Origin: Dromaius novaehollandiae | Taxonomy: Eukaryota; Chordata; Aves; Casuariiformes; Dromaiidae | Assembly (NCBI RefSeq): GCF_036370855.1 | Contig: NC_088102.1 | Location: forward strand, 36,679,835-36,743,834 | Length of the DNA stretch: 64,000 nt | Reading direction: 5' to 3' | Part shown: piece by piece, positions 6,471 to 49,502 of the stretch | Layout of the letters: every line of letters begins with the position of its first letter | Numbering within the stretch: position 1 is the stretch's first letter | Program-made: the position numbers and the translations under genes | The notes under the pieces: model-generated | The model's input: the letters and a program-made list of their open reading frames with translations, nothing else | The model's database searches: none | What the model was told of the DNA's origin: nothing

Positions 6471-6553
6471 CTGTCTCTGAAAGAATATTTTCAAGTACAG
6501 AAAGCAATATGCAGCAGTGCTAACATCCAGATGACAATAAACCAAGAACAAGA

Positions 6554-8146
6554 ATGGAAGTAAATTTATTCAGCAATTCAACTGTTGTAAACAGTTCATC
6601 CATCAACCATAAGCAGTTAGAAGGGCATAGCCTCTGGGAAGTCATTACTATTGCCACTGTAACTGCAGTTGTAAGCTTAATAACCATAGTGGGGAATATT
6701 CTTGTAATGATATCATTCAAAGTTAACAGTCAGCTCAAAACTGTTAATAACTATTACTTGCTCAGCCTTGCCTGTGCAGATCTTATCATTGGAATATTTT
6801 CTATGAACCTTTACACATCTTATATACTCATAGGCCATTGGTCTCTTGGAAGTCTAGCATGTGACCTGTGGCTAGCACTGGATTATGTAGCGAGCAATGC
6901 CTCAGTAATGAACCTCCTAGTCATCAGTTTTGACAGATACTTTTCCATCACAAGGCCTTTAACTTACAGGGCTAAACGCACACCCAAAAGAGCTGGTATC
7001 ATGATTGGTTTAGCTTGGTTAATTTCATTCATTTTGTGGGCACCTGTAATCTTGTGCTGGCAGTATTTTGTGGGTGAACGAACTGTACCACCTGAAGAAT
7101 GCCAGATACAGTTTTTATATGAACCCATTATCACCTTTGGTACTGCAATTGCTGCTTTCTATATCCCAGTGTCAGTGATGACTATTTTATATTGCCGCAT
7201 CTATAAAGAGACTGAGAAACGTACTAAGGACCTTGCTGAACTTCAAGGTTCTGAGTCTGTGGCAGAGTTCGAGATGATAAAGCCTCAGAAAGCTCTCCTG
7301 AAGTCTTGCTTCAGTTGTAAGCAACAAAACTTAGTCAAAAGAGAGAGATGTCAGGCTTCATGGTCTTCATCTAGTAGAAGTACATCTGCTACGGTGAAGG
7401 CATCTCAGGCAGTGAGTACTTGTAATGACTGGTCTAAAGCTGACCAGTTAACCACCTGCAGCAGCTATGCATCTTCAGAAGAAGAGGATAAACTTGCCAC
7501 TGATTCAGTTTTCCAAGTAACTTACAAAAGTCCAGATAAAGGTAAAGTAGAAGAGTTTATTGAAAGGGAGAGTAAGGATGTTGTTGTCAAAGACCAACCT
7601 GAAGAAAATGATTTTGAGACCCAGAAATACTTTCTATCACCTGGCAAAGGCCATGTACAAAAAAGTAAAAAATGTGTGGCCTATAAATTCCGCTTGGTGG
7701 TTAAGGCTGATGGCACCCAGGAAGCCAACAATGGCTGCCGTAAAGTAAAAATAACTCCTTGTGCTGCTGCTCTATCAAAGGATCCTTCCATTAAAAGCAT
7801 GGATCCAAATATAAGTAACCAAATCACCAAAAGGAAAAGGATGGTTCTTATAAAGGAACGCAAAGCAGCACAGACTTTAAGTGCCATTCTTTTGGCTTTT
7901 ATCATTACATGGACTCCCTACAATATAATGGTTTTGATCTCCACATTCTGCTCTGACTGCATCCCCCTAACACTGTGGCACCTTGGATATTGGCTATGCT
8001 ATGTGAACAGCACTGTTAACCCCATTTGTTATGCACTTTGTAACAAAACTTTCAGGAAGACTTTTAAGATGCTGCTTTTCTGCCAGTGGAAGAAGAAAAA
8101 AGTGGAAGAGAAGCTATACTGGCAGGGCAATAACAGATTGCCATAA
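6554..8146 (+). CDS. CHRM5: Muscarinic acetylcholine receptor M5
   Basis: A complete 530-residue class A GPCR on one exon (human M5 has 532). It couples mainly through Gq/11 to phospholipase C at the plasma membrane. The N terminus has Asn-linked sequons (NST at 8, NSS at 13). Seven membrane segments lie at about 29-52, 66-88, 104-126, 147-168, 190-213, 440-463 and 473-494. Key residues are present: Asp110 in TM3 (acetylcholine amine binding), Cys103 with Cys183 (extracellular disulfide), DRY at 127-129, TWTPYN at 452-457 in TM6 and NPICY at 489-493 in TM7. The third intracellular loop (about 215-440) is long and Ser/Lys-rich, as in the M1/M3/M5 group. [16 protein letters not shown] before TM6 is typical of the family. 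The start is the first ATG after a splice acceptor. There is no frameshift or truncation. Confidence 0.97.
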
Positions 8147-16489: not shown

Positions 16490-17190
16490 CTACAGTTCAT
16501 CTTTCTGACATGGACGAGACTTGGTTGTATACGACAGGCCACTGTCAATGGGTTTGATCATCATCCATGCAAACTTGCACATACGTATCTTGTTGCAGTC
16601 CTTCTGCCAGTATATCACATTCCTGTGGTTCAGATTTGCGCCAGCGCATGCATCATACCACCAGCCTCCCCCTGGAATGCCATTGAATTCTAATTTAGCG
16701 CAGTTCTGAAAGTAATTATCGTTGTCTCTGTCCTTGGTGGTGAACTTCTGGTTATCATGGAGATAAGCTTCTGTGTCCAGGGTCAGAGCATCAGTGGCAT
16801 TGCCTTTGTATAGACCAACCCTTATTCGGTATTGAGACTCTTCATCTTCAATAAGGAATGGTTCGTACTGTCCCCATTTGATTTTAGCATTTAGGTCAAC
16901 AAGCTTGACTCCAAGTATATACTGCGTGGAGCTGCTAGTTAATTGATGCATATATTCATTTCCTAACCAGTAGTTGTGTTGAACAGAACCAAATCCATAC
17001 TTGTAATCCTGCCAGGTCCTGTCGAAGTCGACAGTACTATTGGCTGTAATGTGCTGGATCACTGTCCAGCCACCATCCTGCATATTACAATAGACAACAA
17101 TTGGATCTTCCTTTGGTTGGATGATGTGAAGACCATCTTTGGAATTTCCTGGGGAGCGCTGAAAAATCTCAAAACAATCCCTTGGATAGT
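16490..17190 (-). CDS. FReD exon of the fibrinogen-like gene
   Basis: The acceptor on the minus strand is a T-rich tract then CCTACTCAG, with AG at 17192-17191. The exon opens with two bases completing a codon, then encodes 232 residues and a TAG at 16492-16490. The whole fibrinogen C domain is in one exon. Cysteines at PRDC and VVYC, and later at NC, DAC, DC and MC, fit the paired cysteines of FReDs. The KDEL codons are AAA GAT GAA CTG, immediately before the stop. Confidence 0.9.
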
Positions 17191-17995
17191 CTGAGTAGGA
17201 AAAAAAAATAGTAAGTTTTAAAGTAAGTTTCTGTTCATATAGTAAGTTTTAGATATTGGACTCTGTCCTCTACAGTGAGTGAAAGATTGCTTTGATCTGA
17301 CTGGAAACTGTGGCTCAGACTGACTTCAGTCCAACAGGTGGGACATCTACTCAGTCAAAGAGGGAGATTTCAGGGCAAAATATACAGGAAATATTCAGAA
17401 ATTCAAAAATGGGTTGTAATCTAGCTGTAAAACAGAAGCGTGGTTTTGCACTGATGATGGAAAAGTGACTGAAAAGGCAAAAGAGAACTTCATATTAAAA
17501 TAACAATTTTAATGTATTTTATAGGGTCAAAACATAGTGGATACAGTTTGACAGCTTGTCTCTGCCAGGGCCCAGAGCAGCTTAGAGAAAAAGCATAATA
17601 AACAGGGAATGTACAGACTGTTTCTTCTTCTCCTATGTTTTCCCAGTTTCCAGTGGGCAGCAAGTTAGCCATTCCCTGTGCCATGTGTTGGACCACTGTA
17701 TTTAGTAAGTGGAGATAGTCTTATCCTCAAGAAATAGACCTAATTCCTCTTTAATCAATTTATACTTCAGGCACCTGCAACATCCTTGCATTAAATTCCA
17801 GCAAGTATGCCATGTGTGCAATGATAAAAGGAAAATATTAGAGCACAATTCTTGCTAGTACAAAAGTAAAAAAAAAAAAAAATCTGAGGATTCTTTTAGG
17901 AACACTTCTTGTCACTCACACACTCCAGGCCAAATGTTATCACTCGTTTGCAGGTGCTGGATGGAACTACAGTGCTGCATAGCTGCAGTGAACAG
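16490..17995 (-). CDS. Fibrinogen-domain protein, FGL1-like, C-terminal KDEL (5' incomplete)
   Basis: Two minus-strand exons (17995-17920 and 17190-16490) join in frame across a 729-base intron to give the last 258 residues. A linker with SSIQHLQTSDNIWPGV leads into a fibrinogen-related domain that begins YYPRDCFEIF. Domain landmarks are CNMQDGGWTVIQ, the DRDND calcium-site motif, and GGGWWYDACAGANLN. Two sequons (NST and NAT) suggest glycosylation. The protein ends RPCQKDEL followed by TAG, so it carries a canonical ER-retrieval tail. The closest relatives I recognise are FGL1 and the sauropsid/fish proteins called fibrinogen-like protein 1-like; orthology is inferred from memory. FReD proteins are normally secreted lectin-like or coagulation proteins. 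The signal peptide exon must lie further right and was not found. The frame is fully open. Confidence 0.75.
17920..17995 (-). CDS. Candidate upstream exon of the fibrinogen-like gene
   Basis: A 76-base exon is predicted from a strong acceptor (CCTGTTGTTGCTATTCGTTTAG, AG at 17997-17996) and a strong donor (T|GTGAGT, GT at 17919-17918). It is phase 0 at its start and leaves one base, which with the next exon's AC gives TAC. The peptide is LFTAAMQHCSSIQHLQTSD then NIWPGV, flowing into YYPRDC. The frame match, both splice sites and the short distance support it. It has no signal peptide of its own, so at least one more 5' exon is needed. Confidence 0.6.
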
Positions 17996-18000
17996 CTAAA

Positions 18001-18985
18001 CGAATAGCAACAACAGGAAAACAGGTGGAAGTGCTCTTCCATTTTATTGCTTATCCTTTATCTCAGGGGTGATAAAAGTGGCATGTAAGGCTTGGGATGG
18101 ACCTCTGCATTGGACTGAAATGTGTATTGTGCTGTGTTTTTAACTGTACGTTGCTTATAAGTATACTTTTTGCTATAATTAGAGTAGTATCAAGGAGCTC
18201 TGAGACTAAGGCACAACGTTCTGCTTTTACAAATTAACTGTGAGATTTCTAAAAGTCAGAATATAATTCATATAAATAAATATATGTATGTATGAATTCA
18301 TGTATCAATAATTCTTTTTGTAGAGAAGGATATTATTCAGTATTACTCCATTACTCGGAAACATGCTCATGAATTGAAATTACTCACTTCATGCAGCTGA
18401 AAGGCATGTCATTGTGTCATTATGCTATGGGATGTTTGTAATTTATATTTAATAAGCACTTGACAATTTGACTATCTCTATAAGAAAAATTCCTACAGAC
18501 CACCAAAGATGTAAAATGATAGTTTTTTCACACATGTGAAAACCTACGTTCTGCCCTGACAATAACTGATAGGAATTTGGATATTTTATTTAGAAATTAA
18601 TCAATTTTATTAAACAAATTGTTCTTCTGGGAAACTGAGATAATTCAGGAAAAGCATGGCAAGATGTACTCATATTTAAACAAAGAAAATGTTGAAAACC
18701 AATTAGGAAAAACATTTTCAAAGCTGAAGTTTTAAAATAAAAGCTAATTAAGAAGTCTTCTCTTTGCCAAAAACATTGACCTGACAGGCCCTGCTGATCC
18801 TTTTACTGAACACATTTTATTTCCCTGAACACAGTCTGAAAAGAGTCAATCTCATTGTATGGTCTTGTGACCAACAGATCAGAGGTACACTGAAGAGTTT
18901 GTTTAGAGGGAAGAAAGCCCCCAACTTTCTGGAAAGAAATAGAGAGCACAGGATATGAGAGATCATTTTATCTACTACTGGTCCT
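18001..18985. other. Non-coding, upstream of the fibrinogen-like exons
   Basis: This was searched on the minus strand for a signal-peptide exon ending in phase 0, and none was convincing. The DNA is AT-rich with no recognised repeat. Confidence 0.4.
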
Positions 18986-18989
18986 GTAG

Positions 18990-19925
18990 GCAATTATGTC
19001 ATGCGGTCTTCTTCACAGATTTATTAAGTTTCATCTCTTCCAACTGTAAAGCATTGTAGACCTCACTAACCATTGCTAGTCTGATGGTTAGAAACATTCT
19101 TCTGATTCCCAGTCTAATTTTATCAATGGCCACTTTACATCTGTATTTTTCTTGTGTCATGTTATCCTTTAGTGAAATAGTGCTTCTTCCCTGGTAATAA
19201 GCCTTGATGTACAGACAGGACAATTATATTCTTAATCGGTCTTTGTTTTGTTAGGATAAATTATGTTAGGATAAACAAGTTCTTTGATTATCTAGTGTAA
19301 GAGAGGTCTTCTGTTCCTTAATTGTCTTATTTTTTTCTGCACCCCTTCCTCTGCAAATTCATCTCCTAGAATATGGGTAAAATTTGCACAATGTTCCAGA
19401 TAGACTTGTGTAGTGCAACTGATTCTTCACAAGTCCTATTAGAAACATCTCTGTTGATACACTCTAGGGTTGCATTTGTATCTCATAGCTCCCTTTAATC
19501 TAGACTTTCTTCTTCTGATCTTTGCAACTAAGTCCTCTCTCTGCAGTAAAACCTAACATTTTATTTTTCATCCCACCTCCATTACTCAAGAACGAATGTT
19601 TTTTTCTGTATAATATTACGACTCTTTCTTAGCATTTCTCTACTCTATGTTATCATTAAATTTTATCAGTACATTCCTGTTTTTGCTTCAGTATACTTAA
19701 TAAGAATACTGAAAATATCACTTGTAAGCAAACACTTCCAGTCTCCTTTCAGCTTTACAGTTCACCTTTCCACCCAAGCCGTTGTCATTTTCTTTTCAGC
19801 CCCTACTGAAATTATAGTGAAACCCTATCTTCTCTGATTTAACTAACAGTATCCTATGAAGTGTTGTATCACAGGCTTTGTAGAAGTCCAGATGGATTAA
19901 ATTTGTTAAATACTATTATTCATAA
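18990..19925 (-). mobile_element. CR1 LINE fragment, antisense
   Basis: The plus strand follows the antisense of a sauropsid CR1 in order. It reads TCTGATGGTTAGAAACATTC, CAATGGCCACTTTACATCTG, CTTCCCTGGTAATAAGCC and TTTGTTTTGTTAGGATAAA, then TTTTCTGCACCCCTTCC, ATGTTCCAGATAGACTTG, CTAGGGTTGCATTTG, and finally TAGAAGTCCAGATGGATTAAA at the right. The copy is heavily diverged and broken, so the element is inactive. It inserted on the minus strand. Confidence 0.7.
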
Positions 19926-19929
19926 TATC

Positions 19930-22900
19930 AGTATTGTGTTAAATATAACCTTTATATTTTATATTTAGAAGTTTAGTGGTATGTCTGAGGCACTCAGGCC
20001 AAATTTACAGGAGTATATAGGCTTTGCAAAGTCCTACTTTTGGGCCTTCCATTGCTTAATAGAATCCACAACCATAAATAAAATACTTTGAGTCTCAATG
20101 CTACCTGTGTGAAATTATGAAATATCTTGACAGGGCGCAAATGTGTGCACGATTCTGTAACTCAGTAGTTAGAACATTCTCCGCGTAGATATAGTCTCAC
20201 TCCAGACCTGATCCCATGATTTTACAGAATGTGTTATATAAGTATAGAGTGCTGCTCAAGCCAGTAATAGATACAGTGACACTCATATTTGCCTTTCTTC
20301 TGTCTCAGTGAATATTCATTCAAAATAGAACAATAATAGATGAATCTTGAGAAAATCATTTAGGCTGGGGGCTACAGGATTTACTTGGAAAGTAAATTTT
20401 ATAGACCCCCAAGTGCCATCAGTCAGAGGAGGAAAATGAATCAACCTCGCTACTCTTTTTGTCTGCATTTTATGTGGGATCTACTCTGGTAAATGTATTC
20501 TTAGAAAACCTACCAAGTTAGACCTTGCAAGCTAGATAGGCAGAGGAATGTCTCCGTTATAGCTAAACATGAGATTTAGGTGCTGATGTGTCAGGAACAG
20601 TCAAGAAATGGTGTTAAGAAGTCTTCAAATGCCAAAAAATACTTTTTGACAGAAGTTTTGAATGGTTTATGTCTCTTGAATTAGGTGGCAGCTGAGCAAA
20701 GGCTTTAAAGATCTGTATTTTGGACTTAAGAGCCGGTCATGTTTGTATTTCAAAGTATTTTTGTAGAGCTAACTTTCAGATGACTTGCCTGAAAATGTTA
20801 GAGCAAAGCAACAAAGTGAAACACAGCTTGCATCCAAATCACTCGCTCTCTTCATGAGTACCTTTGTCATTGACATTAGCCAATCTCTCATAGCCTCTTT
20901 GGGGGAGAAGGTGAGCATTAGCCAAGACCACTGCTTCTTTGGTGCTCACTGACACAGTACAATGAGAGAGCACCAGCACAATAAATCCCGCTGAACTCTT
21001 CAACAGCATCTTCCTTGTGTGTCAGTCTTTCTGCAGCAATAAACTTCAGAGCTGTAATGCTGGAATTGAAAATTGAAAGATTTATGACTTATAGAATGAA
21101 AGTCCTGAAGGACAAAGAGAAACAACTGCTTTTGACACAGCAACCCTCTACCAAAATTGCCTTCCCCTGCCTCTCAGAAACACCTGCTTTTCCTAATATA
21201 TCACACTGCATTTCTGATAGGTTGCTCTGGTGACACAGAGCATGGCATTGTGCCACTTGCAATGTATCTTATCTTTGTTACTTTGTGCCATGCTGGTCAA
21301 TGAATCATAACATAATTTCATGTGTGATAAACAGTAATAGAAAATAATGTAATGACAAAACTTAAAAGCACATCTTATATTTACCATATTTGAAGTCTGC
21401 TTATTCCTTGAGTCCAAACTGTAGTGAAATAGAGACACCAATGGACGAACTGGCACAAACATGCCTCTCTGGCTGTCTGTAGTTCAAACAGTACTCAACA
21501 ACATGGCTTTCTGAGTACTAGGTATATTTCCATGCACTGAATAACTCACTTCAGCACATCTGGACTATGGTTTGTATGAATTTTCTTCTGTAGTTTTAAA
21601 TAATAGGTCAATGTTTGAAGCCAGGAAAAGAAAAACAGTTCAATAAACAAAATAAAAAAATTTTTCTTCAGTCTCATCAAAACGCACAGGGATTCAATAT
21701 ATATAATCAAAAGAATTTTGAGCCCCATTCTGTCCTCCTTTTTGGGTTACATGGCTAATAACCCTTCATCCAACACAGCAAGAAGTCTTAGGCTATTACT
21801 AGATTAAATCTTGGGGTCATCACTTTAGGCAAATTCTCAATTGACTGAAGAAGAATTTTTATATCAATGGCAGCTTTGACTGAATCAGCACAACAAACGT
21901 TTCCCACACTCTCAAGGGATATATTTACTTAGACAGAAACTACTCAAACTCTTTTTCTTCACCCTCCTTTTTTGTTCTTGTTTTTAATGAGTGAGCTAAT
22001 GCAGTGGCTCTGACGAAGGCAGAAAATAGATCAAGCAAGCAGTTCTTTGGTCAGAGCTCATTCCCTGCCAGCGTCAGCCCAGAGTCTCCATAGGCCAGTA
22101 CCAATCTCCACAGTGGTTTACCTTGCAACAGAGCCACATTCCTTATAAATCTCAGGACTTAGTAGCAGATTCAGTTTTCCAAAGTGAAAAATTATTAAGC
22201 ATATTTTTATTAAAATGTCCAATATAAATCCTGGCAGTAAAATTCAGATCTGAGAATTAATTTTTATTCCAAACATATAAAAACAAAACATAGACTTTTC
22301 TACTCTGTTTAAAGCTGTTCCTTCATAATTCTGATTAACATACAATTTGCTAATATATCCAAAGCTGGTCATTTGATATTGATGTCTTAATGAACTGGAA
22401 AATCACCCTTCCTAAAATTCAGTACAGGGTTTCCCTTAAAACACCGAAATTCTGCTGTGCTTGCATACCCCACTGTCATGCATCCCTTTCCCTGAGAGCT
22501 GCTATTTTGTTATTATTATTGTTATTATTAAAAAGGATTTAAAATAAAAACCTAAGCCACAAGCATCACTAAACTTCAGGGAAATCTGTACTTGGATCTA
22601 TGAGCTTCTTTTTAGCTCTTTTCTTCTTTCTGCATTTTTGAGTGAATCAGTCTTTTTTCTCCCCTCATATTTACAGTAAACACTGAAATTATTTAAAGAT
22701 CCATGTAATTCTAGAAGCAAACTCCATATTATAAATTATTAAGAAAGCAACTGAGGAAAACAGCAGTAGGCAGGCACCTTACCTCTCCTTTCAAGTGGAG
22801 CTTGGCAAAGAAACACACGCACACAAATGAATGAGCTCATTCTCTAGGGTTGTACTTTGCCTGCTACTGAAGTCCAGGTGAATAAATCAGCTTCAACACA

Positions 22901-39910: not shown

Positions 39911-49502
<9,592 letters not shown>

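Follow-up and report, generated by a model that had tools for sequence, protein, structure and literature searches.

A predicted short-lobe fibrinogen-related protein with a KDEL ending between CHRM5 and EMC7

Proteins with a fibrinogen-related domain (FReD) are known from blood, the matrix and immune recognition. A predicted gene for such a protein, located in the window (the whole stretch of 64,000 nucleotides that was analysed; G000:C5:36679835-36743834 in its own genome), closes with the four residues KDEL. This raises the question of whether the ending acts as a retrieval signal for the endoplasmic reticulum (ER) or is an accident. If the former is true, the domain would have been moved inside the cell. 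To our knowledge, the ER lumen is not a location of the FReD family, and we know of no FReD in the KDEL-tailed ER luminal proteins such as BiP, PDI and calreticulin. Moreover, the gene and its kin would then represent a clean natural experiment, with seven paralogues that carry the same type of domain, one of them tagged and six untagged. If the tail is incidental, the locus is a caution against inferring function from a four-residue ending.

The predicted gene consists of two exons on the minus strand, encodes a product of 282 amino acids and sits between CHRM5 and EMC7 (Table 1). The first exon is predicted to encode a hydrophobic N-terminus (MLLKSSAGFIVLVLSHCTVSVSTKEAVVL...), which was assessed as a signal peptide by hydropathy and by eye, and it joins the second exon in phase 1 via GT...AG sites. 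The second exon remains open over 233 codons from acceptor to stop without a break. Past residue 30, no stretch of 19 residues exceeds a hydropathy of 0.53, and the domain exon contains two N-glycosylation sequons. The window has no N bases. A tblastn search at E < 1 detected no second FReD copy in it beyond the two exons of the gene itself, and no RNA families were found in the window at gathering thresholds. A retrocopy was rejected because an intron lies upstream of the domain exon and the kin on C19 have the same layout. For chicken, one report places AVEN, CHRM5, EMC7, KATNBL1 and RYR3 in a single GGA5 interval (PMC8469556), so that the genome is probably that of a bird.

Table 1. Positions of the predicted gene, its C-terminal features and the flanking genes in the window (the tblastn query for four EMC7 exons was an unsourced EMC7 sequence)
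Feature	Position	Strand	Basis
Exon 1: ATG, signal-peptide-like segment MLLKSSAGFIVLVLSHCTVSVS..., 49 codons and 1 base, donor AAG/GTACTC	20862..21009	-	predicted
Intron, GT...CTACTCAG, phase 1	17191..20861	-	predicted
Exon 2: entire FReD, C-terminal tail and TAG stop	16490..17190	-	PF00147; tblastn on window
KDEL retrieval-type signal, AAA GAT GAA CTG and stop TAG	16490..16504	-	direct reading
C-terminal extension SGLSYTTKSRPCQKDEL and stop, beyond the last core strand	16490..16543	-	absent from six C19 paralogues
CHRM5 (muscarinic receptor M5), single open frame	6524..8146	+	phmmer best match human M5 chain 9ejz_R, E 2.5e-190
EMC7, five exon matches	39986..49460	-	exon 1 phmmer E 1.5e-22; four others tblastn

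The domain itself is readily recognised. Exon 2 matches the Pfam family Fibrinogen_C (PF00147) with an E value of 4.6e-47 and 161.1 bits, the gathering cut-off being 22, and the alignment covers positions 2-204 of the 221 profile positions. In a single-sequence search, the closest solved relatives were angiopoietin-1 (E 1.4e-35), followed by angiopoietin-2, FGL1 and ficolins. However, the sequence-only reading had called the FReD complete, and this was not borne out. Although the Pfam match reaches position 204, the window gene lacks a full-length C-terminal lobe, which is short and diverged, as judged by two comparisons. Counted by hand, the stretch that begins at the NLN motif and closes with the last strand (MMIKP/MMIRP) is 29 residues long, as opposed to 40 in an angiopoietin-type exon of the same genome (L025). 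When a profile of the seven-member family described below was used, the alignments of 51 of the 60 solved chains listed ended at or before position 184 of 209, and the nine that extended beyond it belong to angiopoietin-2 and fibrinogen beta. The acetyl-ligand pocket of ficolin-type FReDs sits in the C-terminal lobe. Since this lobe is shortened, ficolin-like acetyl-ligand binding by the window protein is doubtful, and no support was found for the earlier suggestion of a lectin- or chaperone-like protein. The aspartates D154, D156 and D158 of the DRDND loop, which we take to be the calcium loop of fibrinogen gamma, are invariant in all seven members of the family.

The ending of the protein can be read directly. 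On the minus strand, positions 16513-16490 spell CCA TGT CAG AAA GAT GAA CTG TAG, which is translated to P-C-Q-K-D-E-L-stop. The frame thus closes with ...SRPC-QKDEL-TAG at 16490, as had been claimed for the QKDEL ending, and an exact KDEL immediately precedes the in-frame stop. The further claim that KDEL follows right after the domain has to be amended: the tail is an extension of 17 residues past the last core strand (SGLSYTTKSRPCQKDEL, following MMIKPID) rather than the point where the domain itself naturally stops. A PF00147 search of the genome (1.47 Gb, 271 contigs) gave 84 exon-level matches, and the C-termini that were read cover part of the genes behind them. None of the 26 other FReD C-termini ends in [KRHQ][DE]EL. 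These comprise 18 terminal exons, the six genes on C19 and two further genes, L001 and L002, which we label FGL2-like and FGA-like, respectively. The 18 exons were retained as plausible FReD terminal exons from 20 fetched 3' regions; L032, which runs off without a stop, and L033, which reads into an apparent intron, were set aside. Among the 26, L021 may be a pseudogene, as its match opens with an in-frame stop. As far as FReD ends were read in this genome, the tail is therefore peculiar to the window gene.

The nearest kin were sought among the PF00147 matches, so that kin scoring poorly on Pfam could be nearer, and those found are six C19 genes with the FReD in a single exon (13.27-13.29 and 13.52-13.54 Mb; L009 twice, L010, L011, L012 and L013). 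Their identity to the window gene is 37-43% by tblastn and 39-46% in the alignment. All seven genes have in common the shortened C-terminal lobe, two extra cysteines and a KP motif, and the residues C199, C205, K206, K213 and P214 (window exon numbering), which follow the NLN motif, are invariant in each of them. Phase 1 acceptors were read from the sequence contexts of the six C19 genes. A simple scan revealed a signal-peptide-like phase-1 exon for the two genes of the KPTDVC type but for none of the remaining four. With its phase-1 intron, its FReD in one exon and the C...CK...KP signature, the window gene fits this short-lobe single-exon family. In a tree of nine rows the seven were grouped against L001 and L002 with support of 97/95, which is weak evidence for one group because of a long-branch warning and midpoint rooting. 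While the C19 genes resemble the window gene in having the whole FReD in one exon and in the shared signature, all six lack the extension and KDEL. They end in KPAPYC (two), KPASYC (one), KPAPYH (one) or KPTDVC (two), and the last cysteine is the C-terminus in five of the six.

The C19 genes are themselves of some interest. They are arranged in two blocks that lie about 250 kb apart (G000:C19:13268000-13287999 and 13516000-13545999; L009-L013), with three short-lobe FReD genes in each. Either block contains two genes with a KPA.Y[CH] end and one with KPTDVC, and their strands are mirrored (+,-,+ versus -,+,-), which suggests an inverted duplication. One of the genes, L013:2061-2684 on the minus strand, ends in PYH where its sisters have PYC and has lost the terminal cysteine of the family.

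Several known proteins were compared with the window protein. FGL1 resembles it in being a FReD protein by sequence (structure 7tz2, phmmer E 7.8e-33), but differs in that the family profile aligns with FGL1 chains no further than position 180 of 209. An FGL1 orthologue was rejected on account of the short lobe and of the locus between CHRM5 and EMC7, the FGL1 locus presumably lying elsewhere. Angiopoietins, ficolins, tenascins and FIBCD1 share the FReD core, and angiopoietin-1 is the best PDB match of the window protein, but in these proteins the C-terminal lobe is full-length and the FReD is joined to other domains, and we know of no retrieval signal in any of them. BiP, PDI and calreticulin have in common with the window protein the exact C-terminal KDEL, which here goes together with a signal-peptide-like start; by ancestry they are chaperones and foldases. 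Searches for close relatives yielded one pattern match in viral contigs and eleven in GTDB genomes, none of them a relative, and no match in phages.

Names similar to FGL1 also occur in the literature. Identity with the chicken FGL1L of GWAS papers was rejected because this gene (LOC428073) is located on GGA1 beside THSD1 and VPS36, according to two reports (PMC4948856, PMC10976558). A study of green turtle plasma lists two 'fibrinogen-like protein 1-like' proteins (PMC8084024), the turtle accessions being XP_027683601.1 and XP_007065523.1, and a further one is reported from trout liver (PMC6167799). The name spans several genes, and none of these proteins can be assigned to the gene between CHRM5 and EMC7. 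If a turtle plasma protein were an orthologue of the window gene, the latter would be at least partly secreted. One study names a KDEL receptor and a ficolin as separate genes (PMC2584114). No KDEL-tailed FReD protein was described in the open-access titles and abstract openings searched, in which the broadest topics were covered in part and subscription papers were few.

We consider the best reading to be a gene-specific retrieval signal on a small soluble short-lobe FReD protein, which KDEL receptors would return from the Golgi, and we place this reading just on the probable side. The signal peptide, if used as such, would direct the protein into the ER, where it would fold with the formation of disulfides. 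Provided that the tail is exposed, KDEL receptors would then recover the protein from the Golgi via the KDEL-ended extension. At steady state, the protein would thus be found in the early secretory pathway and would be largely kept in the ER, from which it might be released upon saturation of the receptors or a fall of ER calcium. The tail-less C19 paralogues would be secreted. The earlier prediction of residence in the ER lumen agrees with the signal-peptide-like exon 1, the lack of a later hydrophobic segment, the two sequons and the exact KDEL, the retrieval step being the conditional part of it. The open domain frame also favours this reading, as does the low score of the best donor-like site in the tail (3.7 bits), albeit beside only 4.2 bits for the exon 1 donor. 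Counted against retrieval is the observation that the close kin read are all without the tail, which must therefore be young or have been lost elsewhere. Also unfavourable is Cys277, the bonding of which, if it occurs, might make the C-terminal residues less accessible. More tentatively, and as an idea that is possible if somewhat short of probable, a FReD protein may have been brought into the ER lumen through the gain of KDEL after duplication, with the calcium-loop aspartates kept. Such a protein may act on other FReD proteins that are secreted, or ER stress may lead to its release.

The main rival to retrieval is an accident specific to the lineage, in which the extension drifted and came to spell KDEL by chance, so that the product would be an ordinary secreted or weakly retrieved FReD protein. 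In the six C19 paralogues the frame closes on or next to the last cysteine, and there is thus no sign of an ancestral signal. Moreover, the segment between the KP motif and the last cysteine is about 10 residues longer in the window gene than in these paralogues and looks loosely constrained. Based on the composition of the family, the chance of an exact KDEL end is 7.6e-6 per protein and that of a [KRHQ][DE]EL end 3.5e-5. Chance would be expected to supply 0.0002 exact KDEL ends among 27 proteins and 0.15 among 20,000. For a secretome assumed to comprise 2,500 proteins, the expectation is 0.02 exact ends and 0.09 variant ends. Since many windows were scanned, these expectations lend the accident some weight. 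However, chance would rarely produce an exact KDEL, at about 8e-6 per protein, on a protein that also begins with a signal-peptide-like segment. Furthermore, an accidental signal would still be expected to work. In mammalian cells, fusions ending in KDEL, RDEL or HDEL were retrieved despite very varied upstream sequences, and the free carboxylate and the residue at position -4 were decisive, position -5 being modulating but not essential (PMC8248988). Retrieval is therefore to be expected of any intact luminal protein that has a free KDEL, no matter whether its tail was selected or arose by accident. Taken together, we regard an incidental tail as a serious candidate that nonetheless falls well short of being probable.

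It is unlikely, by comparison, that the signal is regulated by masking. In such a case, a disulfide of Cys277 or the formation of oligomers would hide the tail until assembly or until ER calcium drops, and the protein would be stored and later released. The domain exon contains seven cysteines, an odd number, of which four presumably sit at the usual FReD pair positions. The last one, Cys277 of 282, is the sixth residue from the C-terminus. The invariant aspartates of the DRDND loop would also fit a response to calcium, the role of this loop being our assumption. On the other side, the last cysteine is dispensable in the family, as L013 ends in PYH and not in PYC. The AlphaFold2 model of exon 2 alone, calculated from the single sequence, had a mean pLDDT of 32.9; it was useless for this point and was not used. 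That the expressed gene differs from the predicted one, by another exon 1, by an alternative last exon that removes the tail or by decay of the gene, would agree with the middling exon 1 donor (4.2 bits with an ad hoc matrix) beside somewhat better donor-like sites within exon 2 (up to 5.5 bits) and with the nearest AATAAA about 1.6 kb below the stop, an AGTAAA variant being present 30 bases below it, but it is highly improbable given the unbroken frame, the retained conserved cysteines and family signature, the long pyrimidine tract preceding the exon 2 acceptor and a phase that matches the paralogues.

Two further observations concern the surroundings of the gene and other FReD loci. The GC-rich stretch at 561-1692 of the window contains long open frames on both strands and is probably a promoter island; from the synteny it is possibly that of AVEN. 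A Pfam search at E 0.1 with the frames 762-1631, 809-1675 and 824-1609 yielded no match. Elsewhere in the genome, further FReD exon matches are grouped at G000:C20:4691493-4695605, C8:9143232-9172300 and C20:1284266-1307660, and some of them contain internal stops.
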